A stretch of 64,000 bases of DNA from Saccharomonospora glauca K62 (lineage in GTDB: Bacteria; Actinomycetota; Actinomycetes; Mycobacteriales; Pseudonocardiaceae). Positions 40,216 to 57,396 of the stretch are shown piece by piece. The notes beneath the pieces were generated by a model, which searched no databases, was not told the DNA's origin, and worked only from the letters and a program-made list of their open reading frames with translations. Made by a program: the position numbers and the translations under genes. Numbering within the stretch: the first letter of the stretch is position 1; each line of letters begins with the position of its first letter. Location of the stretch: positions 1,165,568-1,229,567 of the forward strand of contig NZ_CM001484.1 in NCBI RefSeq assembly GCF_000243395.2, written 5' to 3'.

Positions 40216-40446
40216 GTGGATTTAAGTCTGCACGCGGCAAGCGACGAAGTGAGCGCCCGGCCCCGGCTCACCACGTGCGAACCCGGCCGCAGCCCCTCGG
40301 CATCGGTCCCGCACCCACCCGGGCGTCCGGGGGTGTCAGCGTGGCCGGACCCGCCGACAACACCCGAGAGCCGTCGAGCGCTCACCACCGTCTCGGCGGC
40401 CATCGAACGACAACCGGATTTTCTGACGTTGGGTTACGACTGGTGA
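40216..40446 (+). CDS. Possible small ORF coupled to the Gfo/Idh gene
   Basis: Open frame of 76 codons from GTG 40216 whose TGA overlaps the GTG start of the next gene (GTGA). It lies downstream of the predicted promoter, with a GTGGGG stretch before it. The product is Pro/Ser-rich in the middle and ends AAIERQPDFLTLGYDW; no family recognised. It could be a leader ORF that couples translation, or chance in GC-rich DNA. Confidence 0.3.
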   Translation: MDLSLHAASDEVSARPRLTTCEPGRSPSASVPHPPGRPGVSAWPDPPTTPESRRALTTVSAAIERQPDFLTLGYDW

Positions 40447-41612
40447 CTGAACAAGCAAGCAGCAACGACGGTAAGCGGCCCACGCTGGGGGTCGCGATGG
40501 TGGGCCACGCCTTCATGGGTGCCGTGCACGCCCACGCGTGGCGCAGTGTCGCGCGGTTCTTCGACGTGCCGTACTCCCCGAGGATGGTCGTCCTCGGGGG
40601 ACGGGACCCGGAGCGCACCGCGCGGGCGGCCGAGCGCATGGGGTGGGCCGACTCCACCACCGATTGGCGGGCGTTGGTGGAACGCGACGACGTGGACCTC
40701 GTGGACATCTGCACGCCGGGGGACACCCACGCCGAGATCGCCATCGCGGCGTTGGAGGCGGGCAAGCATGTGTTGTGCGAGAAACCGCTGGCCAACACGG
40801 TGGAGGAAGCCGAGCGCATGGTGGAGGCGGCCGAGCGGGCCCGCGAACGCGGGGTGTTCGCCATGGTCGCGTTCAACTACCGCAGGGTGCCCGCGCTCGC
40901 GCTGGCCAAGAAGTTGGTGGACGAAGGCAGGCTGGGCGAGTTGCGCCACGTGCGGGCGGCCTACCTCCAGGACTGGCTCGCCGACGCCGACGCCCCGATG
41001 ACCTGGCGGCTGCGTAGGGAGCAGGCCGGTTCCGGTGCGCTCGGCGACATCGGGGCGCACATCATCGACGCCACCCAGTTCGTCTCCGGCCAGACGATCA
41101 CGGGGGTCTCCGGGATGACCGAGACCTTCGTGCGGCGCCGTCCGTCGGAGAACGCGGCCGACGGCATGGAGGACGTCACCGTGGACGACTGCGCGGTGTT
41201 CACCGCGCGGTTTGCGTCCGGCGCCGTGGGCAGCTTCGAGGCGACCCGCTACGCGTTGGGACGCAAGAACGCCATGCGGATCGAGCTCAACGGCTCGAAG
41301 GGCAGCCTCGCGTTCGACTTCGAGTCGATGAACGAGTTGTGGTTCCACGACGGCACGGAGGGGGAGACCACCGGTGGTTTCCGCCGCATCGTCGTCACCG
41401 AACCCACCCATCCCTACATCGGTGCCTGGTGGCCGCCGGGGCATGTGCTCGGCTACGAGCACACCTTCACGCACGAGATCGCGGACCTGCTCACCGCGAT
41501 CGACGCCGGGACGCCGGTGGAGCCGAGTTTCGCCGACGGCCTGCGAGTGCAGCGGGTGCTGGCGGCGGTCGAGAAGAGTGCGGAGAACGGATCGAAGTAC
41601 ATCGAGGTGTAG
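40443..41612 (+). CDS. Gfo/Idh/MocA-family oxidoreductase of the ebo-like region
   Basis: 389-residue NAD(P)-dependent oxidoreductase. Nucleotide-binding start VAMVGHAFMGAVHAHAW, then VLGGRDPERT, DICTPGDTHAEIAIAAL, the catalytic Lys in CEKPLANTVEEAE and the family His region GDIGAHIIDATQFVSG. The closest functional analogues oxidise glycosides or inositols, often at C3, or act on keto-sugars. Start GTG 40443; ATG 40497 would remove the leader and most of the first strand. It precedes a protein containing a DUF1080 domain (3-keto-disaccharide hydrolase family), which fits 3-keto-glycoside chemistry; that link is inference. Confidence 0.87.
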   Translation: MTEQASSNDGKRPTLGVAMVGHAFMGAVHAHAWRSVARFFDVPYSPRMVVLGGRDPERTARAAERMGWADSTTDWRALVERDDVDLVDICTPGDTHAEIAIAALEAGKHVLCEKPLANTVEEAERMVEAAERARERGVFAMVAFNYRRVPALALAKKLVDEGRLGELRHVRAAYLQDWLADADAPMTWRLRREQAGSGALGDIGAHIIDATQFVSGQTITGVSGMTETFVRRRPSENAADGMEDVTVDDCAVFTARFASGAVGSFEATRYALGRKNAMRIELNGSKGSLAFDFESMNELWFHDGTEGETTGGFRRIVVTEPTHPYIGAWWPPGHVLGYEHTFTHEIADLLTAIDAGTPVEPSFADGLRVQRVLAAVEKSAENGSKYIEV

Positions 41613-41660: not shown

Positions 41661-44600
41661 GTGCAACGAAGCAGTAGTACCGGGGTGAGGACAGCGTCGC
41701 GGCGCCGGTGGAAGGCCGGCGTCGTGGCGCTGGCGTTGAGCACGGGGCTGGGGGCCGGTGGTGGTTTCACCGCCGTCGCCGACCAGCGGGTCCAGCACGA
41801 CGAAGCCAGCATTCTCGTTTTCTCGAAGACCGCCGGTTTCCGGCACGACTCGATCCCCGCCGGGATCGAGGCCATCGAGAAACTGGGGGCCGAGCACCAC
41901 TTCTCCGTGGATGCCACGGAGGACGCCTCGGCGTTCACCGACGACAATCTCGCCAACTACGACGCCGTCGTGTGGCTGTCCACCACGGGCGACGTCCTGA
42001 ACTCCGAACAGCAGGCCGCGTTCGAGCGTTACGTCGAAGGCGGCGGGGGCTACGTGGGCGTGCACGCCGCGTCCGACACCGAGTACGACTGGCCGTGGTA
42101 CGGCGATCTCGTGGGAGCCTGGTTCGACTCCCACCCCCAGATCCAGGAAGCGAAGGTCACCGTCGAGGACCGGGAACATCCGTCCACAGCGGACCTTCCG
42201 GAAGAGTGGGTGCGTACCGACGAGTGGTACAACTACCGGGAGAACCCGAGGCAGAACGTGCGCGTGCTGGCCTCCCTCGACGAGGGCAGCTACGATCCGG
42301 GCTCCGGTGCGATGGGCGATCACCCGATTGCCTGGTGCCACGAGAACAGCGGTGGCCGCGCTTGGTACACCGGCGGGGGCCACACGGTCGAGTCCTTCTC
42401 CGAACCGGAGTTCCTGGCTCACCTCGCCGGAGGGATCCGTTACGCGGCGGGACTCACCGACGCTGATTGTTCCACTTCGGACCAACCGGGGGATGCTCCG
42501 GACGACTCCGACTTCGACCAGATCACCCTCGCCAAGGGTGACGACGTCACCGGGGAACCCATCGCGCTCGCGGTGCTGCCCGACCGTCGGGTGCTCCACA
42601 CCTCGCGGGACGGTCGAGTGTTCTTGACCACCCCCGACGGCAACACCAGCGTGGCCGCGACCCTGGACGTCTACAACCACGACGAGGACGGCCTCCAGGG
42701 CATCGCGATCGACCCGGACTTCGAGAACAACCGGTGGGTCTACCTCTACTACGCGCCGCCGTTGGACACGCCGCCCGGTGACGCGCCCGAGAACGGGACG
42801 CCGGAGGACTTCGCTCCGTACGAGGGCTACAACCAGCTCTCGCGGTTCAAGTTCACCGACTCCGGCACGCTCGACCTCGACAGCGAGCAGCAGATCCTCC
42901 GGGTCCCCGCGACCCGCGGCATGTGCTGCCACGCCGGTGGCGAGATCGACTTCGACGCCGACGGCAACCTGCTGCTGTCCACGGGTGACGACACGAACCC
43001 GTTCGCCTCGGACGGCTACACACCGATCGACGAACGCGCCGACCGGAACCCGGTGTTCGACGCTCAGCGCACCTCGGGCAACACGAACGACCTGCGCGGC
43101 AAGATCCTGCGGATCACGGTGCAGGAGGACGGCAGCTACACCATCCCCGAGGGCAACCTGTTCGAACCCGGCACGGAGAAGACGCGGCCCGAGATCTACG
43201 CGATGGGCTTCCGCAACCCGTTCCGGTTCGCGGTCGACAAGGAGACCGGGTGGATCTACGTCGGCGACTACGGCCCGGACGCGGGCTCGGCGAACCCCGA
43301 CCGGGGCCCGGCGGGTACCGTGGAGTTCAACCTCGTGAAGGAGCCGGGCAACTACGGCTGGCCGTACTGCGTGGGAGACAACGAGCCCTACGTCGACTAC
43401 GACTTCGAGACCGGGACGTCGGGTGAGGCGTTCAACTGCGACGCTCCCGTCAACGACAGCCCGAACAACACCGGGCTGAGGGAGCTGCCGCCCGTGCAGC
43501 CCGCGTGGATTCCCTACGACGGCGGGTCGGTTCCCGAGTTCGGCACCGGCGGCGAGTCGCCCATGGGCGGGCCGGTGTACCACTTCGACCCCGAGCTCGA
43601 TTTCGACACCAAGTTTCCCGAGTACTACGACGGCAAGAACTTCGCCTACGAGTGGGACCGCGGCTGGATCAAGACGATCGAGGTCGGGGAGAACGGGGAA
43701 CGCGGAGCCATCGAGCCGTTCTTCGACTCCATGGAACTCACGCGGCCGATGAACATCGAGTTCGGTCCCGACGGCTCGCTGTACGTGCTGGACTACGGCA
43801 GCGGTTACTTCGGTGGTGCGGCCGACTCGGCCGTGTACCGGATCGACTACACCAAGGGCAATCGCACGCCGCAAGTGGTCCTGTCGGCCGACGTGACGTC
43901 CGGGCAGGCTCCGCTGGAGGTCACGTTCGATCCGTCGGGCACCCAGGACGCCGACGGTGACGAACTCACCTACGCCTGGGACTTCGACGGTGACGGGGAG
44001 ACCGACTCGACCGAGGCCGGGCCGGTGACCCACACCTACACCGAGGAGGGCCAGTACCACGCCAGGTTGGCGGTGACCGACTCCACGGGGTTGACCGGAA
44101 GCGCGAGCGTGATCGTGACCGTGGGCAACACGGCCCCCACCGTGACGCTCGAAGCGCCCGTGAACGGCGGGTTCTTCGGCTTCGGTGACACGGTGCCGTT
44201 CCGCGTGACCGTCACGGACCCCGAGGACGGCGAGATCGACTGCTCGAAGGTCACGGTCGAGTACATCCTGGGCCACGACAACCACGGCCACCCGCTGTCG
44301 AGGGCGACCGGCTGCGAGGGCGTGATCGAGACACCCGCCGACGAGGGACACGGGCTCGACGCGGACATCTTCGGCGTCATCGACGCGCGCTACACCGACA
44401 CCGGCTCCGGTGACGTGCCCGCGCTGGAGGGCTCGGACCAGGTGGTGCTCCAGCCGAAGATCAAGCAGGCCGAGTACTTCTCCGAACTCGAGGGCGTCGA
44501 GGTCGTGAACGCCGAGGGCGCCAGCGGCGGCAAGCGGATCGGCTACATCGACGACGGCGACTGGATCAAGCTGGAGCCGGCCGACCTGACCGGCGTCGAC

Positions 44601-46244
44601 GGCATCACGTACCGGGTGTCCTCCGGCGGCGCGGGCGGCACGATCGAGGCGCGGATCGGCTCGGTCGACGGCCCGGTGGTGCACACGGTCGACGTGCCCA
44701 ACACGGGTGGTTTCGACGAGTACGTCGAGATCGGTCCCGTCGCTGTCACCGATCCGGGTGAGAGGGGGCCGCTGTACCTGGTGTTCCGTGGCGAGGGCAG
44801 CGGAGGATTGTTCGACGTGGACGTCCTGTACGTCGACGGCGAGGGAGTCGCCGGACCCGGCACTCCGACCCCCGGCTGCCAGCCCGCTGAGCCCGAGGAG
44901 GGCTACCGGATGCTGTTCGACGGCACCGCCTCCTCGCTGGAGGGCTGGAACCAGTCCGGTCCCGGCTCGTTCGAGCTCGGTGAGGATTGCACCATCAAGT
45001 CCGTCGGCGGTATGGGACTGCTCTGGTTCGGCGAGGAGTTCGGCGCCTACAGCCTCAAACTCGACTGGAAGATGGCCGGTGACGACAACTCCGGCGTGTT
45101 CGTCGGGTTCCCCGACCCCGGGGACGACCCGTGGGTGGCGGTGAACGAGGGGTACGAGATCCAGATCGACCCCACCGACGCGCCCGAGAAGACCACCGGC
45201 GCGATCTACGACTTCCAGTCGGCCGACCTGGAGGCGCGGGACGCCGCGCTCAACCCGCCGGGGGAGTGGAACTCCTACGAGATCGTGGTCCGAGACCAGA
45301 CGATCAAGGTCTACCTCAACGGCACGCTGATCAACGATTTCGTCAGCACCGACCCGAACCGGGACCTGACCTCCGGCTACGTGGGCCTGCAGAACCACGG
45401 GGACGGCGACGACGTCTGGTTCCGCAACGTGCAGATCCGTGAGCTCGACACGACGGCCCCGGCCACCGAGGCGTCGTTCGCCGAGCCCGGTGCGAACGGG
45501 TGGCACAACGGCGAGGTCGGGGTCACGTTGTCGGCCACCGACGACGACTCCGGTGTCGAGCGCATCGAGTACAGCCTCGACGGCGGGGACTGGACCACGT
45601 ACACCGAGCCGGTGGTGATCAGCGGCGACGGCGAGCACACGATGCTCTACCGCGCCGTCGACAAGGCGGGCAACGTGGAGACCGACAAGGCCGTCACCGT
45701 CAGGATCGACGGCACGAACCCGACCGTGCTGATCGGAGGTGTGGCCGACGGATACGTCTACGGCGACGCGGAGGACCTCACGATCACGTGGCAGGCGCGG
45801 GACGCCACGTCCGGCATCGCCTCCGCCGGAGCCGAACTCGACGGCGAGGCACTGGAGTCGGTCACCACGGTGCCGTTGCACCGGCTGGAACTCGGCGACC
45901 ACACGCTCACCGTGACGGCCACCGACGAGGCCGGAAACACGGCCGAGCACACGGTGACCTTCACGTCGACCACCTCGGTAGACGAGGTGAGGGCGCTGGT
46001 GTACCGGTTCGGCGCCGAGCACCGGATCGGCCTTGCCCGGAAGGTCCTGCTGCTGGTCGACCTGGCTCGTGCGGAACGGGCCCTCGACCGGGACCACCCG
46101 AAGCAGGCCGTGCGCGCCCTGAACTCGTTCGTGGACCGGGCCGAGCAGGTCTCCGACAAGGAGGTGCGCCAGGTGCTGGTCCGGGACGGACGGGCCCTCC
46201 TCGGCGATCTCGACGGCAGCGCTCCGCTGCCCGTCGTGTCGTGA
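41661..46244 (+). CDS. 1527-residue secreted ThuA / sorbosone-dehydrogenase / PKD / CBM6 / DUF1080 protein
   Basis: Exported multidomain protein with a signal peptide (RRRWKAGVVALALSTGLGAGGG). Order by approximate residue: ThuA-like domain 50-265 (ILVFSKTAGFRHDSI); glucose/sorbosone-dehydrogenase-like propeller 285-730 (VAATLDVYNHDEDGLQGIAI, RGMCCHAGGEIDFD, YAMGFRNPFRFAVD); PKD 735-820 (YAWDFDGDGETDS); linker; CBM6-like 930-1065 (AEYFSELEGVEV, GYIDDGDWIKLE); DUF1080 1080-1262 (LFDGTASSLEGWNQ, GVFVGFPDPGDDPW, GEWNSYEIVV); one or two Ig-like modules 1265-1435; and a helical FIMAH-like end 1440-1520. No cell-wall anchor or membrane helix. It would bind and act on an external glycan or glycoside. 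GAGGAG precedes GTG 41661. Confidence 0.88.
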   Translation: MQRSSSTGVRTASRRRWKAGVVALALSTGLGAGGGFTAVADQRVQHDEASILVFSKTAGFRHDSIPAGIEAIEKLGAEHHFSVDATEDASAFTDDNLANYDAVVWLSTTGDVLNSEQQAAFERYVEGGGGYVGVHAASDTEYDWPWYGDLVGAWFDSHPQIQEAKVTVEDREHPSTADLPEEWVRTDEWYNYRENPRQNVRVLASLDEGSYDPGSGAMGDHPIAWCHENSGGRAWYTGGGHTVESFSEPEFLAHLAGGIRYAAGLTDADCSTSDQPGDAPDDSDFDQITLAKGDDVTGEPIALAVLPDRRVLHTSRDGRVFLTTPDGNTSVAATLDVYNHDEDGLQGIAIDPDFENNRWVYLYYAPPLDTPPGDAPENGTPEDFAPYEGYNQLSRFKFTDSGTLDLDSEQQILRVPATRGMCCHAGGEIDFDADGNLLLSTGDDTNPFASDGYTPIDERADRNPVFDAQRTSGNTNDLRGKILRITVQEDGSYTIPEGNLFEPGTEKTRPEIYAMGFRNPFRFAVDKETGWIYVGDYGPDAGSANPDRGPAGTVEFNLVKEPGNYGWPYCVGDNEPYVDYDFETGTSGEAFNCDAPVNDSPNNTGLRELPPVQPAWIPYDGGSVPEFGTGGESPMGGPVYHFDPELDFDTKFPEYYDGKNFAYEWDRGWIKTIEVGENGERGAIEPFFDSMELTRPMNIEFGPDGSLYVLDYGSGYFGGAADSAVYRIDYTKGNRTPQVVLSADVTSGQAPLEVTFDPSGTQDADGDELTYAWDFDGDGETDSTEAGPVTHTYTEEGQYHARLAVTDSTGLTGSASVIVTVGNTAPTVTLEAPVNGGFFGFGDTVPFRVTVTDPEDGEIDCSKVTVEYILGHDNHGHPLSRATGCEGVIETPADEGHGLDADIFGVIDARYTDTGSGDVPALEGSDQVVLQPKIKQAEYFSELEGVEVVNAEGASGGKRIGYIDDGDWIKLEPADLTGVDGITYRVSSGGAGGTIEARIGSVDGPVVHTVDVPNTGGFDEYVEIGPVAVTDPGERGPLYLVFRGEGSGGLFDVDVLYVDGEGVAGPGTPTPGCQPAEPEEGYRMLFDGTASSLEGWNQSGPGSFELGEDCTIKSVGGMGLLWFGEEFGAYSLKLDWKMAGDDNSGVFVGFPDPGDDPWVAVNEGYEIQIDPTDAPEKTTGAIYDFQSADLEARDAALNPPGEWNSYEIVVRDQTIKVYLNGTLINDFVSTDPNRDLTSGYVGLQNHGDGDDVWFRNVQIRELDTTAPATEASFAEPGANGWHNGEVGVTLSATDDDSGVERIEYSLDGGDWTTYTEPVVISGDGEHTMLYRAVDKAGNVETDKAVTVRIDGTNPTVLIGGVADGYVYGDAEDLTITWQARDATSGIASAGAELDGEALESVTTVPLHRLELGDHTLTVTATDEAGNTAEHTVTFTSTTSVDEVRALVYRFGAEHRIGLARKVLLLVDLARAERALDRDHPKQAVRALNSFVDRAEQVSDKEVRQVLVRDGRALLGDLDGSAPLPVVS

Positions 46245-46248
46245 TCCT

Positions 46249-46292
46249 CTCCCGTGCGGGCGCCGGTGGCGCGGCGGGCGCCCGCACGGGAG
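46249..46292. terminator. Very strong terminator hairpin
   Basis: Perfect 16-bp arms (46249-46264, 46277-46292) beginning CTCCCGTGCGGGCGCC, with a 12-nt loop, 5 bp after the stop of the large gene. It separates that gene from the operon that follows. Confidence 0.8.
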
Positions 46293-46410
46293 GCTCCACT
46301 GCGACCGCGTCGAGACGCCGGAACGGCAGGGGAGAGTGAGAGGGACGGTCAAGGCGCGGCGGCGCGAGCCCCGCCGCGAACGAACATAAGTGAACTGAGG
46401 TTGGTGCATC

Positions 46411-47559
46411 ATGGCGCCCACAGGGTTGTGGTTGATCGGTGCCAGGGGTTCGGTCGCCACCACGGCGATCACGGGGCTGCTCGCGTTGCGGTCCGGAGTC
46501 GTTCCTCCCGTCGGTTGTGTCAGTACGCTGCAGGAGTTCGCCGATGTCCCGCTGCCGGAGTGGGAAGACCTCCGCGTCGGAGGACACGACATCGTCGACA
46601 CTCCCCTGGAGAAACGAGCCGAACTACTCGCCGAGGCCGGCGTGGTTCCGCATCGGGTCCTCGACGCGGTGCGCTCCTCACTGTCCGAAGTAGAAAGTGA
46701 CTTGCGACCCGGCTACCACCCGGCGACGCACGCGGGCACGCAGGCGGAGGCGGCGCGGAACCTAACCGCGGACATCACCGAGTTCGCGCGCAGGCACGAC
46801 CTGGCCAGGGTCGTGGTGATCAACGTGTCGTCGACCGAACCCGTGTTCCCCGCTCTGTCCGAACACGACAACCTGGGTGCACTGGAGGCGGCCATGGCCG
46901 TTCCCGGTCGCACGGTGCTGCCGCCGAGTTCGGTGGCAGCCTACGCGGCGTTGCGGGCGGGGTGCTCGTTCGTCGACTTCACGCCGTCGACGGGCATCCG
47001 GATTCCCGCGTTGAGAACGTTGGCCGACCGGCAGCGGGTGCCTTACGCCGGGGCCGACGGCAAGACGGGCGAGACCCTGGTGCGCAGCACGCTCGCGCCC
47101 ATGTTCACCACACGGGGCTTCACGGTGCGGTCGTGGTCGGGTACCAACCTCCTCGGGGGCGGCGACGGCATGACGTTGGCCGACGCCGAGCATGCGGGCA
47201 GCAAGCTCGCGTCCAAGGGCCGGGGGCTGGCGACGCTGCTGGGCGGGGACGTCACCGCGCCCCTGCACATCGACAACGTCCCCGACCTCGGGGAGCAGAA
47301 GATCGCCTGGGACCACGTGTCGTTCGAGGGGTTCCTCGGCGCCCGCATGAGCCTGCAGTTCACGTGGACCGGCTACGACTCCTCGCTCGCCGCGCCGTTG
47401 GTGCTCGACCTGGCGCGCTTCACGGCGGCGGCCCACGCGGCGGGGCGGACGGGGCCGTTGGCCTCCCTCGGGTTCTTCTTCAAGGATCCGATGGGCAGTG
47501 ACGAACACCGGCTCGCGCATCAGTTCTCCGAACTCGTCGAGTGGGCGGGCACGCTGTGA
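46411..47559 (+). CDS. Inositol-3-phosphate-synthase-like protein
   Basis: 382-residue member of the myo-inositol-1-phosphate synthase family. Features: Rossmann start GLWLIGARGSVATTAITG, VVVINVSSTEP, VDFTPSTGIRIPAL, GADGKTGETLVRSTLAPMF (catalytic Lys region), RSWSGTNLLGGGDG and YDSSLAAPLVLDLARF. It is not obviously the housekeeping enzyme: its operon consists of ebo-type genes. In described ebo clusters a sugar-phosphate-cyclase-like EboD occupies this role; here an inositol-phosphate cyclase family protein may supply the cyclitol core instead. First gene of an eight-gene operon; a GAGG site lies 9-10 nt before ATG. Stop overlaps the prenyltransferase GTG. Confidence 0.88.
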   Translation: MAPTGLWLIGARGSVATTAITGLLALRSGVVPPVGCVSTLQEFADVPLPEWEDLRVGGHDIVDTPLEKRAELLAEAGVVPHRVLDAVRSSLSEVESDLRPGYHPATHAGTQAEAARNLTADITEFARRHDLARVVVINVSSTEPVFPALSEHDNLGALEAAMAVPGRTVLPPSSVAAYAALRAGCSFVDFTPSTGIRIPALRTLADRQRVPYAGADGKTGETLVRSTLAPMFTTRGFTVRSWSGTNLLGGGDGMTLADAEHAGSKLASKGRGLATLLGGDVTAPLHIDNVPDLGEQKIAWDHVSFEGFLGARMSLQFTWTGYDSSLAAPLVLDLARFTAAAHAAGRTGPLASLGFFFKDPMGSDEHRLAHQFSELVEWAGTL

Positions 47560-48422
47560 GCGCGTACGTCGAGCTCGTCCGGGCGCCCGCGGCGTTGACC
47601 GTGGTGGGCGACACCGTGGCCGGCGCGGCGGCCGCGGGAGTCCCGTTACGCGGCCGAAGGCGCTTGCTGCCTTTGGCGTCGACGGCGTTCTACTGGGCGG
47701 GCATGGCGCTCAACGACTGGGCCGACCGGGATCTCGACGCGGTGGAGCGTCCCGAACGTCCCATCCCGTCCGGACGGGTGAGCGCGAACGCGGCATTGGC
47801 CACGGGGGCCGCCCTCACCGCCGCCGGGCTCGCGTTGGCCCGACTCGGCGGGGGCGCCCGCGCGTGGCGTACGGCGGTGCCGCTCGCCGCCTGCCTGTGG
47901 GCGTACGACACGGCCCTGAAGGGCACGGCGTTGGGACCGGCGGGGATGGCGGCGTGCCGGGCGTTGGACGTGCTCATGGGCGCTTCCGGGCGGGAACGCG
48001 CGGCCCTGCCCGCGGCGGGAGCGCTGGGCGTGCACACGTTCGGCGTCACCACTCTGTCCACGGGGGAGGTGCACGGTACCAACGCCCGTACCGCGGGGAG
48101 TGCTCTCGCGGCGACGGTGACTTCCGCTGCCTCCGCCGCGGTGGCGCGGCGACGTTCCCCCGCCGTTGGTGGTCGGGCGCGACGGGCGGCCACGGCGGCG
48201 TTCGCGGGCGCGTACGCGCTGACCGTGGGCCGCGCCCAGTACGCGGCCCTGCGGAACCCCTCGGCCCAGCGGGTGCGCGAGGCGACGAAAGCCGGTATCC
48301 ACGGCATGGTTCCGCTTCAGGCCACCATCGCGGCGAGGCACGGAGCCGTGCGTGCCGCGACGCTGCTGGTGACCGCTCTGCCGCTGGCGCGGCGACTCGC
48401 GAGGAAGGTGAGCCCGACGTGA
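47556..48422 (+). CDS. UbiA-type prenyltransferase, EboC-like (SCO3242 family)
   Basis: 288-residue integral membrane prenyltransferase-like protein. The first Asp-rich motif is intact, NDWADRDLDAVERPERPIPSGR; the second UbiA region is reduced to WAYDTALKGTALG. Many Ala-rich helices (about eight) follow. EboC in the ebo cluster is a UbiA-family protein, and actinobacterial versions are known as SCO3242 family. It would attach an isoprenoid chain to a polar headgroup, possibly anchoring an intermediate in the membrane. Coupled on both sides by GTGA overlaps. Confidence 0.85.
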   Translation: MSAYVELVRAPAALTVVGDTVAGAAAAGVPLRGRRRLLPLASTAFYWAGMALNDWADRDLDAVERPERPIPSGRVSANAALATGAALTAAGLALARLGGGARAWRTAVPLAACLWAYDTALKGTALGPAGMAACRALDVLMGASGRERAALPAAGALGVHTFGVTTLSTGEVHGTNARTAGSALAATVTSAASAAVARRRSPAVGGRARRAATAAFAGAYALTVGRAQYAALRNPSAQRVREATKAGIHGMVPLQATIAARHGAVRAATLLVTALPLARRLARKVSPT

Positions 48423-49849
48423 GCACACTGCGATTCGGATACGGCACCAACGGTTTCGCCAACCACCGGCTCGACGACGCCCTGGCGATCATCGCCGACC
48501 TCGGCTACTCGGGGGTGGCGTTGACGTTGGACCACGCGCACCTGGACCCGTTCGCCGCCGACGTGGCCGCGCGGACGGCGCGGGTGGCGAAACGACTGTC
48601 GGAACTGGGGCTCGGAGTGGTGGTCGAGACCGGCGCCCGGTTCCTGCTCGATCCGTGGCGCAAGCATCAGCCCACCCTGCTCTCCGACGATCCCGGCCCC
48701 AGGCTGGACTTCCTGCGCCGGGCGGCCGACATCGCCGTCGACCTCGGTGCGGAGTGCGTCTCGTTCTGGTCGGGGGTCGCCGATCCCACCGTGGACGACG
48801 ACACGGCGTGGCGGCGGCTGGTGTCCACGGTGTCGGAGGTCCTGGACGGGACGAAGGCCCGGTTCGCCCTGGAACCCGAGCCCGGTCACTACGTCCAGCA
48901 CCTCGACCAGGCGTTGGCGTTGCGGCGGGAGCTGGGCGAGCCCGACCGCCTCGGCATCACGCTCGACGTCGGGCACTGCGTGGCGGTGGAGCCCGTCAGC
49001 GCCGCGGAATGCGTTCGCAAGGCCGGTGACCTGCTGTTCAACGTGCAACTGGACGACATGCTCCCCGGCGTGCACGAGCACCTGGAGTTCGGGGAAGGAC
49101 GGCTCGACCTCGCCGAGACACTCGGCGCGCTGGCCGAGATCGGCTACTCGGGGCTGGCGGCCGTGGAACTGCCCCGGCACAGCCACGCCGCCCCGGACGT
49201 CGCTCGCCGGGCGAAGGTGGCGTTGACGGCGGCCGACTGGGTGGTCGACGCGCAGGAGGCGATCCGGTCCGATCCCACCCGCATCCGCACGCTGTTCCCG
49301 GCGGTGGGCCGGAAGGTTGGGCGCACCGCCCTCCGCCCGGACGTCGACCCGGAAGGGCTCGTGCACGGCACCGTCGACGACCACGCGCGCGGCAAGCTCC
49401 TGGCCGCGCTGGGCTCGGCCTTGGACGCCGACGCGCTCGTGAAGGAAGTGGAGGAGTTGTACCGGTACGGCGACGGCGCCGAGCGTCGCGGCGTGCTGCG
49501 CAACCTCCACGTCCTGCCCACCGACGACCCACGGGTGGTCGAGGCCGGGGTGCGGTTGGTGGCCGACGCGCTGAGGGCCAACGACACCGGGTTGGTGGCC
49601 GCCGCGCTCGGGCCGTTCGCCGCCGACCACCTCGACGACCATGGCTGGCGGCACGGCGTCCTGAAGTTCCTGTTCACCGGCGTGCCCACGGCGGCCGTCG
49701 CCGGGTTGTCCCGACGCTGCGACGCCGAACTGATCCGCATGGTCTCCGACTACGTGGCCGAGAGGAAGGCCGCGGGCCGCACCGTGCCCGCCGATGCCGA
49801 GGCGATCCTGGCCCTCGGCGCCACCCGTGACGAGGAGGTCGCCCGATGA
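48419..49849 (+). CDS. TIM barrel-EboA fusion protein
   Basis: 476-residue protein in two parts. Residues 1-270: xylose-isomerase-like TIM barrel (TLRFGYGTNGFANHRLDDAL, FALEPEPGHYVQH, GITLDVGHCVAVEP, NVQLDDMLPGVHEHLEFG, AAVELPRHSH) with candidate metal ligands Glu, Asp, His and Glu. Residues about 290-470: helical EboA domain (AVGRKVGRTAL, DDHARGKLLAAL, RNLHVLPTDDPRVVEAG, AALGPFAADHLDDHGWRHGVLKFLFTG). EboA's role in metabolite handling is unknown. Having the isomerase-like barrel fused to EboA implies that the two act on one substrate or in one complex. Overlaps genes on both sides by 4 bp. Confidence 0.85.
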   Translation: MSTLRFGYGTNGFANHRLDDALAIIADLGYSGVALTLDHAHLDPFAADVAARTARVAKRLSELGLGVVVETGARFLLDPWRKHQPTLLSDDPGPRLDFLRRAADIAVDLGAECVSFWSGVADPTVDDDTAWRRLVSTVSEVLDGTKARFALEPEPGHYVQHLDQALALRRELGEPDRLGITLDVGHCVAVEPVSAAECVRKAGDLLFNVQLDDMLPGVHEHLEFGEGRLDLAETLGALAEIGYSGLAAVELPRHSHAAPDVARRAKVALTAADWVVDAQEAIRSDPTRIRTLFPAVGRKVGRTALRPDVDPEGLVHGTVDDHARGKLLAALGSALDADALVKEVEELYRYGDGAERRGVLRNLHVLPTDDPRVVEAGVRLVADALRANDTGLVAAALGPFAADHLDDHGWRHGVLKFLFTGVPTAAVAGLSRRCDAELIRMVSDYVAERKAAGRTVPADAEAILALGATRDEEVAR

Positions 49850-50709
49850 AGATCTTCGATCCGCACATCCACATGACGTCGCGCACCACCGACGACTACG
49901 AGAACATGTACGCCGCCGGAGTGCGCGCCCTCGTCGAACCCGCGTTCTGGCTCGGGCAGCCTCGCACGAACGTCGGTTCGTTCACGGACTACTTCGACGG
50001 GCTGATCGGGTGGGAGCGGTTCCGGGCCTCGCAGTTCGGCATCCGGCATCACTGCACGATCGCGTTGAACCCCAAGGAGGCCAACGACCCTCGGTGTACC
50101 GAGGTGCTCGACGTGCTGCCGCGCTACCTCGCCAAGGACGGCGTGGTGGCCGTCGGCGAGGTCGGATATGACTCGATGACCGACGCCGAGGAGAAGGCGT
50201 TCACCCAGCAGTTGGAACTCGCGATCGAGCACGACCTGCCCGTGCTCGTGCACACCCCGCACCGCGACAAGCTCGCGGGCACGCGACGCACGCTCGACGT
50301 CGTCCGGGAGTCGGGCATCGACCCGGCCCGCGTGGTGGTGGACCACCTCAACGAGGTCACCGTCGGACTCGTCGCCGAGTCCGGGTGCTGGATGGGCTTT
50401 TCCATCTATCCCGACACGAAGATGGACGAACACCGCATGGTGGCCATCCTGAAGGAGTACGGCACCGATCGGATGCTGGTGAACTCGGCGGCCGACTGGG
50501 GACGTTCCGACCCGCTCAAGACCTACCGCACGGGCAATGCCATGCTCGAAGCCGGATTCAGTGAGTCTGAAGTGGACAAGGTGTTGTGGGACAACCCCGT
50601 CGCGTTCTACGGGCAGAGCGAGAAACTGATGCTCGACCCGTTGCCGGGGGCGGCCCCGACGGCCGAGACGTTCGAGGGCAACTCCGTGCTGCGCGGCGCG
50701 AGGAAGTGA
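49846..50709 (+). CDS. TatD-family metal hydrolase, EboB-like
   Basis: 287-residue amidohydrolase-fold enzyme with the metal set of TatD proteins: IFDPHIHMTS (His-x-His), VVAVGEVGYDS (Glu), LPVLVHTPHRDK (His), VVVDHLNEV (His) and NSAADWGRSDPL (Asp). TatD enzymes are nucleases or lactonase/phosphatase-like hydrolases; in ebo clusters this position is EboB. The C-terminal region (SEKLMLDPLPGAAP) is longer than in typical TatD. It follows EboA by an ATGA overlap and precedes eboE by 3 bp. Confidence 0.88.
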   Translation: MKIFDPHIHMTSRTTDDYENMYAAGVRALVEPAFWLGQPRTNVGSFTDYFDGLIGWERFRASQFGIRHHCTIALNPKEANDPRCTEVLDVLPRYLAKDGVVAVGEVGYDSMTDAEEKAFTQQLELAIEHDLPVLVHTPHRDKLAGTRRTLDVVRESGIDPARVVVDHLNEVTVGLVAESGCWMGFSIYPDTKMDEHRMVAILKEYGTDRMLVNSAADWGRSDPLKTYRTGNAMLEAGFSESEVDKVLWDNPVAFYGQSEKLMLDPLPGAAPTAETFEGNSVLRGARK

Positions 50710-50712
50710 GCC

Positions 50713-51813
50713 GTGCTCTCCTACTGCACCAACGTGCATCCCGCCGAGGATCTCGACGGCATCGTCCGGCAACTCGACACCTACGCCGTGCCGGTGCGGG
50801 AGCGGCTCGGACTCGACCTGCTCGGCGTGGGATTGTGGCTCGCCGCCGACGTGGCGTCGGCACTGGCCGAGGACCCCGATACCAGGGCAAGGTTCGCCGG
50901 TGAGCTGAAGGCCAGAGGGCTGGGAGTGCAGACGCTCAACGCCTTTCCGTACGGCGGTTTCCACGACGACGTCGTCAAGCACGCGGTGTACGTTCCGGAG
51001 TGGACTGACCCGCGCAGGCTGCGCTACACCCGCGACTGCCTGACCGTGCTGGCCGACCTGCTGCACGAGGACGCGAGCTACGGCAGCATCTCGACGTTGC
51101 CACTGGCCTGGCGTGAGCCGTGGGACCCGGCCGATGACGAGCGCGCCGCGAAGGCCTTCGAGGAGGTCACGGCACACGCCAAAGCATTGTCCGAACGCGA
51201 CGGAAGGCTATTGCGGCTGGCCGTGGAACCCGAACCCGGATGCGTGCTCGACACGGTGGCCGACGCGGTGTCGTGGCTGTCCGGTCGGGTCGACCCCGAC
51301 CACGTCGGGGTGTGCCTCGACACCTGCCACCTGGCCGTGTCGTTCGCCGACCCGGCACGGGAGGTACGTCGCGTCCACGACGCCGGGCTCGACGTGGTGA
51401 AGGTGCAGGCGTCGGCCGCGCTGCACGTCGAGAACCCGGCCGAGGATCGGGCTCGTGCGGCGCTCGCCGAGTTCTGCGAACCTCGCTACCTCCACCAGGT
51501 GCGGGAGCTCTCGCCCACCGGGGAGGTCCTCGCGGCCGACGACCTCGACGCCGCGTTGACGGATCTGCCGGGAGCCGGACCCTGGCGCGTGCACTTCCAC
51601 GTGCCGCTGCACACCCGGCCGGCCCCACCGCTCACCTCCACCACGGACGTGCTGGTCGACGCGATGACCGCTCTGGACGAGAGCGGACGACCACGTCCTC
51701 ACGTCGAGGTCGAGACCTACACGTGGACGGTACTGCCCGAGGCCGACCGCACCGATCTCGCCGTCGGGATCGCCGACGAACTGGGCTGGGCACGGACGGA
51801 GGTAGCCGCATGA
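50713..51813 (+). CDS. eboE: Metabolite traffic protein EboE
   Basis: 366-residue protein of the EboE family, a TIM barrel related to sugar isomerases. Recognisable parts: LSYCTNVHPAEDLDGIV at the start, LGVQTLNAFPYGGFHDDVVK, YGSISTLPLAWREPW, RLAVEPEPGCVLD, GVCLDTCHLAVSFADP, VKVQASAALHV and VHFHVPLHT. In cyanobacteria ebo genes are needed to move a scytonemin precursor to the periplasm; EboE's own reaction is not known. GTG 50713 lies 3 bp after eboB-like; the stop overlaps the next ATG. Confidence 0.85.
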   Translation: MLSYCTNVHPAEDLDGIVRQLDTYAVPVRERLGLDLLGVGLWLAADVASALAEDPDTRARFAGELKARGLGVQTLNAFPYGGFHDDVVKHAVYVPEWTDPRRLRYTRDCLTVLADLLHEDASYGSISTLPLAWREPWDPADDERAAKAFEEVTAHAKALSERDGRLLRLAVEPEPGCVLDTVADAVSWLSGRVDPDHVGVCLDTCHLAVSFADPAREVRRVHDAGLDVVKVQASAALHVENPAEDRARAALAEFCEPRYLHQVRELSPTGEVLAADDLDAALTDLPGAGPWRVHFHVPLHTRPAPPLTSTTDVLVDAMTALDESGRPRPHVEVETYTWTVLPEADRTDLAVGIADELGWARTEVAA

Positions 51814-53210
51814 GGAAACTGTTGGTGCTCGACGTGGTGGGCATGACGCCCGACCTGTTGCGGCACATGCCGAACCTGTCGAAGGTGGCCGCCAAGGGAT
51901 GGCAGGCCGAACTGGGCACTGTGCTCCCCGCCGTCACGTGCAGCGTGCAGTCGACGCTGCTCACCGGAGCGATGCCCGCCGAGCACGGCATCGTGGGCAA
52001 CGGCTGGTACTTCCGGGACCTCGGCGAGGTCTACCTGTGGCGGCAGCACAACAAGCTCGTCCAACGGCCGAAGGTGTGGGAGGTCGCGCGGAAGGCGTAC
52101 CCCGACTACACCGCCGCCAACGTGTGCTGGTGGTACGCGATGGGCGCGACCACCGACATCACGGTCACCCCGAGGCCCATCTACCACGCCGACGGGCGCA
52201 AGTCGCCCGACTGCTACGTGCGTCCGCCGCATCTGCACGACGCGCTAACGGCCGAACTCGGGGCGTTCCCGCTGTTCCAGTACTGGGGGCCCACGGCATC
52301 GATCACCTCGTCGAAGTGGATCGTGGAGGCCACCCGGCGCATCCTGCGCACCGACAACCCCGACCTGCTGCTGGCGTACGTGCCGCACCTCGACTACGAC
52401 CTCCAGCGGTACGGTCCCAACTCGTCCCAGGCGGTGAAGGCGGCCCGCGACGTCGACGCCGTCCTGGCGCCGTTGCTCGCCGACGCCCAGCGAGCCGGGA
52501 CCACCGTGGTGGCACTGTCCGAGTACGGCATCACGCCCGTGGACACCCCGGTGGACATCAACCGGGCGCTGCGGCGGGAAGGGCTGCTGGAGGTCTACAC
52601 CCAGGACGGCATGGAGTACCTGGACCCGTGGACGTCACGGGCGTTCGCCGTGGCCGACCACCAGGTCGCCCACGTCTACGTCGCCGACGACTCCGACCTG
52701 CCGAGGGTTCGCAAGATCGTCGAGAACCTCACCGGTGTGGACGAGGTCCTGGACCGCGAGGCCCAGGCTCGGTACGGACTCGACCACGAGCGGGCGGGTG
52801 AGTTCGTCGCGGTGGCCGAACCTCGCGCGTGGTTCACCTACTACTACTGGTTCGACGACGACCACGCGCCCGACTTCGCGCGGGGCGTGGAGATCCACCG
52901 CAAGCCCGGCTACGACCCGGCCGAGCTGTTCCTGGACCCGACCGATCGCTTCGCCAAGGCCAGGGCGGGGCTCAACCTGGTGCGCAAGAAGCTCGGGCTG
53001 CGCTACGCCATGAACGTGGTGCCCACCGACCCGAGGTGGGTACGGGGCTCACACGGCCGGCTTCCGGACTCTCCCGAGCACGGTCCGGTGCTGGTCTGCT
53101 CCGATCCGGCCGTGCCTTCCGCCGTGGAGGCCTCCGGCCGGCTGTCCGCCACGGACGTCCACCACCTGCTCCTGCAACTGCAAGGAATCCGAGAGGGAAC
53201 TCAACGATGA
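51810..53210 (+). CDS. eboF: Alkaline-phosphatase-superfamily protein, EboF-like
   Basis: 466-residue nucleotide pyrophosphatase/phosphodiesterase-type enzyme. Metal and nucleophile features: [14 protein letters not shown] (metal Asp), [20 protein letters not shown] (Thr nucleophile), [16 protein letters not shown] (Asp and His metal pair), [12 protein letters not shown] in place of the common SDHG, and [11 protein letters not shown] (His). No signal peptide, so a cytoplasmic role is likely. EboF of described clusters has the same superfamily. It may remove a phosphate or nucleotide group from the cluster's product. Confidence 0.85.
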
Positions 53211-54211
53211 GCCGACCGGTAACGCTGTTCACGGGCCAGTGGGCCGACCTGCCGTTCGAGGAGGTGTGCCGACTCGCCTCGGAATGGGGATACGACGGGC
53301 TGGAGATCGCCTGCTCGGGCGACCACTTCGAGGTCGATCGGGCCTTGGCCGAGGAGGACTACGTCGCGAACAGGCTGAAACTGCTCGAATCCTACGGCCT
53401 CAAGGTCTGGGCCATCTCCAACCACCTCGTCGGCCAAGCGGTGTGCGACGACCCGATCGACGAGCGGCACCGCAACATCCTGCCCGCCCGGATCTGGGGA
53501 GACGGCGATCCCGAGGGGGTACGGCAGCGAGCCGCGGCCGAGATGGCCGACACGGCCAGGGCCGCCGCGAAACTGGGCGTGGACACCGTCATCGGCTTCA
53601 CCGGGTCGAAGATCTGGAAGTACGTGGCGATGTTCCCTCCGGTGTCCGCGGAGATGATCGAGGACGGTTACGCCGACTTCGCCCGGCGCTGGAACCCGAT
53701 CCTCGACGTCTTCGACGAGGTGGGGGTGCGGTTCGCCCACGAGGTGCACCCCAGCGAGATCGCCTACGACTACTGGACCACCAAGCGGGCGCTGGAAGCC
53801 GTGGACAACCGGCCCGCCTTCGGCCTGAACTGGGACCCGTCGCACTTCGTGTGGCAGGACCTCGACCCGGTGGGCTTCATCCTCGACTTCGCCGACCGCA
53901 TCTACCACGTGGACTGTAAGGACACGAAGAAGCGGCTGGATGGCCGTAACGGCAGGCTCGGCTCGCACCTGCCCTGGGCCGACCCGCGGCGGGGCTGGGA
54001 CTTCGTGTCCACCGGACACGGTGACGTGGACTGGGAGAGCGCCTTCCGGGCGCTGAACGCCATCGGCTACACCGGGCCCATCTCGGTCGAGTGGGAGGAC
54101 GCGGGCATGGACCGTTTGCGGGGCGCCGCCGAAGCCGTGCAGTACATCCGCGCTCATCTTTTCGACAAGCCGGAAGCCGCCTTCGACGCCGCGTTCAGCA
54201 CGGAGAGGTGA
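53207..54211 (+). CDS. Xylose-isomerase-like TIM-barrel protein of the ebo-like operon
   Basis: 334-residue sugar phosphate isomerase/epimerase. Metal-site candidates: [15 protein letters not shown] (Glu, His), [12 protein letters not shown] (Asp, His), [11 protein letters not shown] (His, Asp) and SVEWEDAG (Glu). The [26 protein letters not shown] start and the WDP-HF pattern occur in inositol/keto-sugar isomerases that pair with Gfo/Idh dehydrogenases. Cytoplasmic. ATG 53207 overlaps the eboF stop and the next gene follows 9 bp later, so it belongs to the same transcript. Confidence 0.87.
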
Positions 54212-54220
54212 CGAGACGCC

Positions 54221-55075
54221 ATGAGAGACACGAAGCTGTCCCGCAGGGCGATGTTCCGCACCGCGGTGGGAGCCGCGGCCGTCGTGGGGCTCACCGGAGC
54301 GATGAGCGGTACCGCCCACGCGCACTGGGGCGTGGGTAGACGCATTCCCAGAAACCGGATCAGCATCCAGCTCTACACCCTTCGGAACCTGCTGGAGGCG
54401 GACCTGGAGGGCACGCTGGAGGCGTTGGCCGACATCGGCTACCGCTCCGTGGAGCTCGCGGGCACCTACGGGCGCTCCGCCGCCGAGTTCCGCCGGTTGC
54501 TCGACCGCTACCACCTCAGGGCGACTTCCGCCCACGTCGCGTTCGACGGTGCCGACGTCGACGACCTCATCGAGGAGGCGAGGACGATCGGTTACCGGAA
54601 GGCGGCCTGCGCCTACGCCAACTACTCCACGCTCGACGAGTGGAAGGCGTTCGCGGAGCGGCTCGACAAGGCCGCGGCGGCCTTCCGCAGGGCGGGCATC
54701 TCGTACGGGTACCACAACCACGACCACGAGTACCGGCCCATCGACGGCGTCCGGCCCATCGACGTCATCGCCGAGCGCACCAGCCCTCGCAACGTGCACC
54801 TGGAGTACGACCTGTACTGGGTGATCGAGGGCGGGGCCGACCCGGTGGTGGAGTACTTCCGCCGGTTCGGCCGAGTCCTGCAGTTCCACGTCAAGGACCG
54901 TGGGCAGGACGGCGGTTGGGCCGACGTCGGCACGGGCACCATCGACTGGGCGACGCTGTTCCGTCGGACGTGGATCGGGCCGATGAAGCAGTACATCGTC
55001 GAACACGACGACCCGGCCGACCCGCTGAACACGGCCAAGGTGGGCTTCGACTACCTGGTGAACCTGCGTTTTTGA
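54221..55075 (+). CDS. Secreted (Tat-like) TIM-barrel sugar isomerase-like protein
   Basis: 284-residue TIM barrel with a twin-arginine-like leader, LSRRAMFRTAVGAAAVVGL, cleaved probably after AHA. Barrel features: RISIQLYTLRNLLEADLEG, SYGYHNHDHEYRPI (His and Glu), LEYDLYWVIEGG (Asp), LQFHVKDRG (His) and YIVEHDD (Glu). Tat export suggests a folded, metal-loaded enzyme acting outside. It shares the outside with the ThuA/DUF1080 protein encoded upstream, so both could process one external glycoside. Last gene of the operon; a hairpin follows. Confidence 0.85.
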   Translation: MRDTKLSRRAMFRTAVGAAAVVGLTGAMSGTAHAHWGVGRRIPRNRISIQLYTLRNLLEADLEGTLEALADIGYRSVELAGTYGRSAAEFRRLLDRYHLRATSAHVAFDGADVDDLIEEARTIGYRKAACAYANYSTLDEWKAFAERLDKAAAAFRRAGISYGYHNHDHEYRPIDGVRPIDVIAERTSPRNVHLEYDLYWVIEGGADPVVEYFRRFGRVLQFHVKDRGQDGGWADVGTGTIDWATLFRRTWIGPMKQYIVEHDDPADPLNTAKVGFDYLVNLRF

Positions 55076-55085
55076 TTCCTCCGGT

Positions 55086-55130
55086 GGTTCCGGCCGTGGG
55101 TGGTGGGCGCACCGCTCGCGGCCGGAAACC
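55086..55130 (+). terminator. Probable terminator after the ebo-like operon
   Basis: Outer arms GGTTCCGGCCG / CGGCCGGAAACC (one bulge) enclosing a smaller GGTG-GGCG-CACC hairpin, 11 bp after the last stop. Confidence 0.55.
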
Positions 55131-55296
55131 GAGCATGGCGCGCTGGGAACTCACCCGAGGACCCGGATCCCGCGCGGAAGCCCATGCAGCTGGCCGGGTG
55201 GCGTTCGTCACCGACGAGACACGCCGGATCACCGGCCGGGTGCTCGGCACCGAAGGTGGCTTCGCCTGCCTCCGCGAGGCCGGTGACGTCGGGAAC

Positions 55297-56300: not shown

Positions 56301-56771
56301 TCACCGAAGCGCGGGGTTCACCTGGAACGGGAACTGCGTCAGGTCGTCCTCTCGCGTCGGCTCGTCCCCGCTCCGGGGGACGGGGAACTCGGTCAGGGCC
56401 GACTCCACCGTCGGGTACAGCGGCAGTGCCTCGGCCAGACCCACGGCTTCGATCGGTCTCCGGACCGCACGCTGTGTGGCCACCACGCGCAAAGGAACGC
56501 CCTTGCGTACGGCGGCGTCCTGGGTGTCGAGCAGTAGAGCCAGTCCCGCCGAGCCCAGGAACGAGACCTCACCGAGGTCCACGACGAGCGACTGGGGCGG
56601 CGACACGGCGTCGAGTGCCCCGGCCAGGTGCTCGGCGAGTTCGCCCCTCGTGCTGAGGTCGATCTCCCCGCTCACCGTGACCACGACTCCTGCTTCGTGA
56701 CATTCAGTGGTTAAACCCAGCAGTGAAGTGGGTACTGCCAATTCGGACACGGCACCTCCAGCGGTGTCCAC
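56301..56771 (-). CDS. STAS-domain anti-sigma factor antagonist-like protein
   Basis: 156-residue protein holding one STAS domain: VVVTVSGEIDLSTRGELAEHLAGAL, SLVVDLGEVSFLGSAGLALLLDTQ (phosphorylatable Ser in GSAG) and a last helix near AVGLAEALPLYPTVESALTEF. Such proteins bind and silence anti-sigma kinases when unphosphorylated. The C-terminal tail (PVPRSGDEPTREDDLTQFPFQ) is extra. No anti-sigma or sigma gene is adjacent. GTG 56771 is taken; GTG 56750, with GGAGG just upstream, is a good alternative. Divergent from the CBS gene. Confidence 0.85.
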   Translation of the reverse strand: MDTAGGAVSELAVPTSLLGLTTECHEAGVVVTVSGEIDLSTRGELAEHLAGALDAVSPPQSLVVDLGEVSFLGSAGLALLLDTQDAAVRKGVPLRVVATQRAVRRPIEAVGLAEALPLYPTVESALTEFPVPRSGDEPTREDDLTQFPFQVNPALR

Positions 56772-56923
56772 ATCAACCGATAGGTCGAACTACGTCCGGC
56801 CGCTTTCTACTCAACCGCCCGACGCCCAAAGACTAGCCCGGACGGCGCAACGTGCAAAGACCAGAATCGCTGGGCACTCCCCAATCGGAGGATTTTTTCC
56901 GATATACGAGGAGTGATCCGACG

Positions 56924-57340: not shown

Positions 57341-57396
57341 TCGAGTGAATTCGTTAGGGTTTGTCGTCGGGTTCGGAAAATAGTCGCTGACTAGTT

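Follow-up and report, generated by a model that had tools for sequence, protein, structure and literature searches.

Clusters of ebo genes have been described from plastids, cyanobacteria, Bacteroidota and other phyla (PMC5133447), and a transport role was reported for them in Nostoc punctiforme, where the scytonemin monomer is moved to the periplasm (PMC6282210). A proposed isoprenoid-cyclitol product and an actinobacterial fusion of a TIM barrel to EboA were already published in 2016, in a paper that also describes planctomycete sets of ebo genes lacking eboD (PMC5133447). Conserved ebo genes have also been described in Saccharomonospora by a paper that names EboD a putative 3-dehydroquinate synthase and, in its accessible part, reports on enzymes tested from Maribacter, Zobellia and Algoriphagus (PMC9235831). 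Here we analyze an ebo-like operon of Saccharomonospora glauca K62, whose genome comprises 4.56 Mb in two contigs. The operon lies at positions 46411-55075 of a stretch of 64,000 nucleotides (contig NZ_CM001484.1, 1,165,568 to 1,229,567; called the window below), and the ebo/UbiA-297 genes of PMC9235831 come from the same or a sister genus.

Like the eboA-F operon of eustigmatophyte plastids, Bacteroidota and cyanobacteria (PMC5133447), this operon unites EboA, EboB, EboE and EboF with a UbiA-type prenyltransferase. Unlike that operon, as the accessible part of the same paper describes it, the one in S. glauca has an inositol-phosphate-synthase-like protein (INO1) and an extra TIM barrel (TIMn) for EboD, a SCO3242-type prenyltransferase, and linked genes of 3-keto-glycoside type, namely a Gfo/Idh/MocA oxidoreductase (Gfo) and a ThuA multidomain protein upstream and two further TIM barrels (TIM7 and TIM8) at the operon end. 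Its rear genes are homologous to those of the N. punctiforme ebo and Pseudomonas fluorescens EDB clusters, from which it differs in its head enzyme (PMC6282210, accessible part). The SCO3242-SCO3243 pair of the Streptomyces coelicolor calcium-dependent antibiotic (CDA) cluster likewise sets a putative transferase beside a myo-inositol phosphate synthase; the part of PMC3610822 available to us treats the pair as CDA-cluster genes in a transcriptome table, with no ebo connection. The term "inositol" is absent from the main text of PMC5133447, PMC6282210 and PMC9235831. The openly licensed literature yielded no paper on EboE with inositol and Streptomyces, nothing on SCO3242, SCO3243 or prenylated cyclitols that joins INO1 with ebo, and no reported product of an ebo cluster. 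As far as that literature reaches, the exchange of INO1 and EboD, a mosaic plasmid, the loss of metal ligands in EboF and the 3-keto-glycoside link described below are new. The cluster is widespread yet unexplained, and an apparent natural swap of its cyclase narrows what it could build.

We favor, at a probability of roughly 0.55, the reading that the operon is an INO1-headed variant of ebo in which INO1 would supply the cyclitol for prenylation. INO1 exceeded the cut-offs of both INO1 Pfam domains (PF07994, 173.2 bits, cut-off 25; PF01658, 100.3 bits, cut-off 27) and matched 1u1i over its full length (E 5e-63), which we take to be the inositol-1-phosphate synthase of the archaeon Archaeoglobus fulgidus. 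The presumed catalytic positions of that enzyme (N255, K274, K278, K306 and K367, A. fulgidus numbers) are invariant in all 37 rows of the INO1 clade (31 in ebo clusters, 4 from loci without EboE and 2 at contig edges) and in all 12 other actinobacterial rows of its kind, which makes it likely that INO1 is catalytically competent. These results bear out the cyclitol-type first enzyme claimed by an earlier sequence-only reading of this DNA. A distant family member, 6k96, bears the name five-membered-cyclitol-phosphate synthase. The operon INO1 fell far below the mycothiol INO1 model TIGR03450 (22.3 bits, cut-off 638), and a second INO1 elsewhere in the genome is taken to be the mycothiol-type enzyme. 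The chemistry of INO1 is well known, and its presence here offers a concrete and easy assay in tractable hosts such as Streptomyces and Saccharomonospora.

In a sample of 396 Actinobacteriota genomes, EboE was present in 19 (above the cut-off in 18), and an INO1 at least 50% identical to that of the operon in 17, the match in G246 consisting of two adjacent pieces. All 17 of the latter genomes have EboE at most 6 kb from INO1 on the same contig, whereas the next-best INO1 genes were 33-40% identical and lay in other genomes or places; Fisher values for this co-occurrence are descriptive and uncorrected for kinship. The two EboE genomes without such an INO1 are G381, which has EboD, and G279, whose INO1 is 38-39% identical and whose EboE matched only as two pieces. 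This pattern suggests that INO1 is dedicated to the ebo-like operon, in which it would differ from the archaeal enzyme. The neighborhood survey proposed by the sequence-only reading also recovered the core gene order in other Actinobacteriota, so that the operon grouping exceeds chance.

Pfam and NCBIfam scans matched none of the eight operon genes to EboD (no whole-genome search for EboD was run), and INO1 and EboD appear to exclude each other. An enlarged set held 127 loci, 7 of them without EboE. Among the other 120, 84 had INO1, 10 had EboD, 26 had neither (at least eight of these being cut off by contig ends) and none had both. An earlier set of 108 loci (L024-L131), scored at another threshold, gave 75 with INO1 only, 8 with EboD only, 25 with neither and again none with both. 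TIMn accompanied INO1 in 82 of 84 loci and EboD in 0 of 10. Ebo clusters were seen here in Proteobacteria, Deinococcota, Gemmatimonadota and actinobacteria, phyla outside Actinobacteriota being represented by plasmid records. A "3-dehydroquinate synthase" (EboD) is annotated in plasmid clusters of Ketogulonicigenium, Deinococcus (two), Mycetohabitans, Salipiger (two), Azospirillum, Aureibacter and Roseivivax, and tblastn detected no INO1 in any of these nine. By sequence comparison, INO1, the SCO3242-type prenyltransferase and TIMn hold the place of EboD and EboC before the same EboB, EboE and EboF, and look like an exchangeable head. We also considered whether EboD is a glucose-6-phosphate cyclase like 2-deoxy-scyllo-inosose synthase. 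The EboD of Ketogulonicigenium vulgare was nearest to dehydroquinate synthases and to 4p53, which we take to be an EEVS-type cyclase, with 2-deoxy-scyllo-inosose synthase weaker; we rejected the proposal, although this ranking does not decide the substrate.

Clusters without INO1 do not appear to represent a third head type. For 17 of the 25 such loci in the earlier set (the other eight have contig ends near the cluster), 15 of the 17 genomes held an ebo-type INO1 elsewhere, and at seven Streptomyces and Lentzea loci no other cyclase was seen by eye just upstream of UbiA. Of the 17 INO1 places retrieved, 11 belonged to another ebo cluster, whole or fragmentary, four lacked EboE (L133, L134, L137 and L138) and two lay at a contig edge. 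In several genomes an ebo cluster with INO1 coexists with one that lacks it (for example L132/L049 in G396 and L042/L025 in G128). In Lentzea L049 (2277-7036), the INO1-less cluster directly follows genes for a periplasmic sugar-binding-type protein (PF13407) and an ATP-binding-cassette transporter ATPase (by eye), a pair that might supply a cyclitol by import instead of synthesis; the ebo matches of L054 are arranged as in L049.

The exchange extends to a Gemmatirosa plasmid (L130, Gemmatimonadota), on which TIMn, INO1 and UbiA adjoin on one strand, TIMn being 51% and INO1 43% identical to the window proteins. Its UbiA branches with the INO1 type (support 93/86). Its EboE and EboF are nested in EboD-type groups (100/100 and 100/99), and its EboB clusters with the Deinococcus and G381 proteins (100/100). 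L130 branches deepest in the INO1 tree next to the ebo clade of actinobacteria, which makes its INO1 kin to theirs rather than a separate recruitment from the INO1s sampled. Thus L130 looks like a mosaic of INO1-type head genes with EboD-type EboE and EboF. In EboE trees, the EboD type formed a single clade in 0 of 200 bootstrap replicates. Together, the INO1/EboD exchange and the mosaic plasmid are good evidence that the pathway needs a carbocycle. On a broader and tentative proposal, taken up below, the whole head is swapped while EboB, EboE and EboF are kept, so that either both heads would converge on the same ring or the ring would be a mere headgroup of a general carrier lipid. If the heads converge, a hexose phosphate, and not sedoheptulose 7-phosphate, would become a candidate substrate of EboD. 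These data also bear on the proposal that INO1 is an ordinary second inositol-1-phosphate synthase, placed by chance beside ebo genes and adding to the inositol pool. The INO1 family is known and the genome already holds one member, as this proposal would have it, but the 17/17 co-occurrence, the near-constant gene order, the exclusion of EboD and the mosaic plasmid make it very improbable.

The UbiA of the operon passed the SCO3242-family prenyltransferase model NF045897 (370.3 bits, cut-off 260) and failed the EboC model NF035940 (154.6 bits, cut-off 250), which 6 of 7 EboC proteins from EboD-type clusters also failed. The first Asp-rich motif, NDxxDxxxD, is retained in all 23 aligned UbiA/EboC rows. 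The best solved relative of UbiA was, weakly, digeranylgeranylglyceryl phosphate synthase (E 2.3e-5), an enzyme that prenylates a polyol phosphate, with chlorophyll synthase barely behind (E 3.5e-5). In 21 of the 23 aligned proteins, from both cluster types, the C-terminal residue is threonine (window positions 48417-48419).

Comparison with the EboA-EboF families supported the ebo-like assignment. The EboA domain model NF035938 (156.8 bits, cut-off 50) and the EboE model NF035939 (442.3 bits, cut-off 250) were passed. The full EboA-family model was not reached (60.9 of 320 bits), and beside the failed EboC model and the missing EboD, no NCBIfam match of the candidates for EboB and EboF carries either name or exceeds a cut-off. 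In the fusion protein, TIMn occupies about residues 1-275 and the EboA domain residues 320-463; the AF2 model has a mean predicted local distance difference test score (pLDDT) of 97.1, and the Foldseek matches listed, 50 in all and to sugar isomerases and epimerases, fell on the barrel. TIMn is fused to EboA in 21 of 80 loci and is elsewhere a separate gene or not found whole. The folds of TIMn and EboE resemble ketose 3-epimerases, and the EboE model matched UlaE, SCO6571 and YcjR. EboB exceeded the cut-offs of TatD (PF01026, 58.1 bits, cut-off 27) and PTE (PF02126, 27.4 bits, cut-off 22.4) and matched 3guw, archaeal AF_1765 (E 1.1e-27). It retains the HxH, E, H, H, D pattern and shares ligand-like motifs with the TatD proteins of EboD-type clusters; in the commonest variants displayed, EboB and EboE both retain motifs expected of metal sites.

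EboF belongs to the PF01663 lineage (222.7 bits, cut-off 23), which is alignable throughout 86 EboF proteins of both cluster types. We compared it with 2gsn, a bacterial nucleotide pyrophosphatase/phosphodiesterase, at D54, T90, D210, H214, D257, H258 and H363, presumably the zinc-ligand and active-site positions. Four of these seven are replaced, D54, H214, D257 and H258 by V, Q, E and Y (V in 85 proteins and A in one; Q, E and Y in all 86), and T90, D210 and H363 are retained (T and D in 86; H in 85 and R in one). The loss of four ligand positions implies that EboF is probably not an ordinary two-zinc phosphatase. This conclusion runs against the published guess that EboF is a phosphate hydrolase (PMC5133447, accessible part), and EboF should not be presumed a phosphatase.

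From these features we infer five steps, given in order of falling certainty. INO1 would cyclize glucose-6-phosphate and thereby provide the pathway with an inositol phosphate of its own, despite the second, mycothiol-type INO1. TIMn would then isomerize or epimerize the ring, and the membrane protein UbiA would add an isoprenoid to give a membrane-bound prenyl-cyclitol. EboB and EboE would finish this compound, and EboA and the degenerate EboF would have binding or scaffolding roles in place of catalysis and ordinary phosphatase activity, respectively. Last, the prenyl-cyclitol lipid may have a membrane function, such as that of an anchor or carrier. Pfam and NCBIfam scans of the eight genes recognized no transporter, and an export role, as proposed by the sequence-only reading, would be carried over by analogy from Nostoc. 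Nine neighboring genes that were scanned gave no sign of scytonemin genes, at which no search was aimed.

Several observations weigh against this interpretation. DxxxD, which we take to be the second Asp-rich motif of UbiA prenyltransferases, is missing from 22 of the 23 aligned UbiA/EboC rows, in both cluster types (L046 has an isolated DxxxD). Two INO1-type loci (L051 and L075) have no clear TIMn, and the EboD-type sample is thin, with nine plasmid loci and one actinobacterial genome. G401 has no ebo-type INO1 and G279 only the one at 38-39% identity, with no EboD at either ebo locus. The mosaic evidence is a single plasmid, whose UbiA falls below both prenyltransferase cut-offs (172.5 of 260 and 135.6 of 250 bits). 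We favor a swap that happened twice, but an approximately unbiased (AU) test on EboE did not reject one EboD clade (p 0.068), and in the EboB tree the two cyclase types do not separate, five EboD-type EboB lying among the actinobacterial ones. The whole argument draws on gene content, exchange and residue patterns, from which we infer the chemistry. Finally, an ebo-type UbiA prenylates an aromatic compound in vitro rather than a cyclitol (PMC9235831, accessible part).

This last result raises the alternative of an aromatic or quinone-like prenyl acceptor. In that case, IolE-like TIM barrels and Gfo would oxidize and dehydrate the cyclitol to an aromatic ring, which UbiA would then prenylate to give a new lipid quinone-like cofactor or metabolite. 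The compound farnesylated in vitro is 8-hydroxyquinoline-2-carboxylic acid (PMC9235831), and BE-40644, which is cyclitol-derived, is farnesylated presumably by a UbiA-superfamily enzyme (PMC5133447). Consistent with this alternative, the best NCBIfam match of TIM7 and TIM8 was myo-inosose-2 dehydratase (44 and 51 bits, far under the cut-off of 290), and two Gfo proteins and a TIM barrel are likewise encoded at the EboD-type cluster of K. vulgare. However, TIM7, TIM8 and Gfo lie outside the conserved core, which would therefore have to aromatize the ring without them, and Pfam and NCBIfam scans recognized no oxidase in the core. We regard an aromatic acceptor as unlikely and retain the INO1-headed reading.

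The genes flanking the core resemble a cassette for 3-keto-glycosides, judged by homology. Gfo best matched 4h3v in the PDB (541 bits) and also 6a3f (302 bits), listed as a putative dehydrogenase and taken by us to be levoglucosan dehydrogenase. It fell below the levoglucosan dehydrogenase model NF052479 (363 bits, cut-off 650) and resembles both levoglucosan and inositol dehydrogenases. Since its domain begins only at about residue 70 of the annotated open reading frame, translation, judged by eye, probably starts at a GTG near 40443 and yields a cytoplasmic protein. A twin-arginine translocation signal on Gfo was accordingly rejected, the long N-terminus being probably a wrong start. The ThuA protein (1,527 residues, with a signal-like N-terminus by eye) combines ThuA, glucose/sorbosone-dehydrogenase-like, PKD, CBM6 and 3-keto-disaccharide hydrolase domains. 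TIM7 matched 2zds (S. coelicolor SCO6571, 596 bits) and the 2-hydroxy-3-keto-glucal hydratase 8ro4 (E 6e-44). TIM8, whose N-terminus is twin-arginine-like by eye, matched 8tcd-type isomerases and 8bvk (E 2.9e-26), the O-glycoside beta-eliminase AtOGE (PMC10628242).

We scored linkage at the 59 of 80 loci with at least 9 kb on both flanks (45 INO1-type and 14 INO1-less), counting as ThuA any gene whose product is related to some part of the 1,527-residue protein; the gene so counted in L137 has sugar-dehydrogenase-like and PKD domains and no ThuA domain. Of the 45 INO1-type clusters, 29 had a close relative of the ThuA protein, of TIM7 or of Gfo nearby, in seven families and with differing gene order; none of the 14 INO1-less clusters had one. 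Taken singly, TIM7 accompanied 18 of the 45, a TIM8 relative 19 and Gfo 13. Across genomes, 14 of the 17 INO1-ebo genomes had TIM7 at 69% identity or more, against 9 of the other 379 (15 and 40, respectively, at E <= 1e-40), and ThuA exceeded its cut-off in 14 of 17 and 47 of 379. Gfo, the ThuA gene, TIM7 and TIM8 thus resemble a cassette for 3-keto-glycoside breakdown that is frequently found alongside INO1-type ebo clusters, and we read the link as a functional partnership centered on INO1, outside the ebo pathway proper. A reading of all eight genes as ebo genes was rejected, because TIM7 and TIM8 fall outside the conserved core; they are related instead to 3-keto-glycoside enzymes, and such neighbors should not be taken for ebo enzymes.

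The same linkage could mean that the operon is mainly a unit of 3-keto-glycoside catabolism, in which INO1 and the ebo core process or import the released compound and no prenyl-cyclitol carrier is made. The likeness of Gfo, the ThuA protein, TIM7 and TIM8 to a glycoside 3-dehydrogenase, hydrolase, glucal hydratase and beta-eliminase would suit such a unit, as would the 29/45 and 0/14 counts, the concentration of TIM7 in INO1-ebo genomes, and three loci (L133, L134 and L137) in which INO1 adjoins Gfo and TIM7 without ebo genes. But 16 of the 45 INO1-type clusters have no linked ThuA, TIM7 or Gfo, TIM7 also occurs in genomes without ebo, and a hairpin stands between the ThuA gene and INO1. Among annotated EboD-type stretches, Gfo genes occur only in K. 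vulgare and a ThuA gene in none. Moreover, the 14 INO1-less loci are hardly independent, because 12 are from Streptomyces and 2 from Lentzea, and one of them (L067) has distant relatives of the ThuA protein (PF06283, 150 bits) and of Gfo next to the cluster on the other strand. We therefore give the catabolic unit a low probability and keep the INO1-headed ebo variant as the better account. A broader proposal, which we put forward tentatively and hold to be possible rather than probable, is that ebo makes a prenyl-cyclitol membrane lipid whose ring may be supplied by one or the other of two unrelated cyclases (EboD, or INO1 together with a TIM barrel and prenyltransferase of its own), and that in actinobacteria it works with a partly secreted 3-keto-glycoside breakdown.

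The coordinates are collected in Table 1. The open reading frame list and junction sequences agree with the earlier description of eight genes on the plus strand joined by 4-bp overlaps or gaps of at most 9 bp: five junctions are 4-bp overlaps and the remaining two are gaps of 3 and 9 bp. The bounds given for the operon stood as well, although they omitted the linked upstream Gfo and ThuA genes. TIM7 starts inside the end of EboF and is probably co-translated with it. Two strong hairpins bracket the operon. The one before INO1 is a possible terminator without a T tail; neither T-tailed terminators nor sigma-70-like promoters turned up in a consensus scan over 40000-56000. Among the 80 loci listed, the closest EboE is that of Saccharomonospora piscinae (79%).

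Table 1. Features of the ebo-like operon and its linked genes (window positions).
Feature	Position	Strand	Basis
Gfo/Idh/MocA oxidoreductase (Gfo)	40275..41612	+	PF01408/PF22725
ThuA/3-keto-disaccharide-hydrolase multidomain protein	41661..46244	+	domain scan
Strong hairpin between ThuA gene and INO1	46248..46293	+	-46.1 kcal/mol, z -3.63
INO1-like cyclitol phosphate synthase, archaeal type, operon head	46411..47559	+	Pfam, 1u1i match, residue alignment
SCO3242-family UbiA prenyltransferase, EboC counterpart	47556..48422	+	NCBIfam, motif alignment
TIMn-EboA fusion	48419..49849	+	Pfam/NCBIfam, AF2, Foldseek
TatD/amidohydrolase EboB	49846..50709	+	Pfam, motifs, 3guw match
EboE, TIM barrel	50713..51813	+	NF035939, structure model, Foldseek
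EboF, alkaline-phosphatase-superfamily	51810..53210	+	PF01663, zinc-ligand alignment
TIM7, xylose-isomerase-like TIM barrel	53207..54211	+	matches to 2zds, 8ro4
TIM8, xylose-isomerase-like TIM barrel	54221..55075	+	matches to 8bvk, 8tcd-type isomerases
Strong hairpin directly 3' of TIM8 gene	55082..55131	+	-44.3 kcal/mol, z -3.55

Some minor features of other clusters were also noted. The Deinococcus clusters L124 (7824-8150) and L127 (7806-8144) each contain a short hypothetical gene but lack an annotated EboA; the short L124 protein matched no NCBIfam model at E 0.01. Genes for a "ferritin-like protein" and a hypothetical protein lie just upstream of ebo in both Mycetohabitans L125 (3048-6066) and Aureibacter L129 (2040-5100), which belong to different phyla. 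A gene for a pyrroloquinoline quinone (PQQ)-dependent dehydrogenase lies just downstream of the EboD-type cluster of Salipiger L126 (14666-16813), and the two Gfo proteins and TIM barrel of Ketogulonicigenium L123 (5765-7811, 14201-15112) surround its ebo genes. In the window itself, the minus strand downstream of the operon (56301-59699) encodes a STAS-domain protein, a UDP-glucose/GDP-mannose dehydrogenase and a family-9 glycosyltransferase, which seem to form a sugar cluster of their own.

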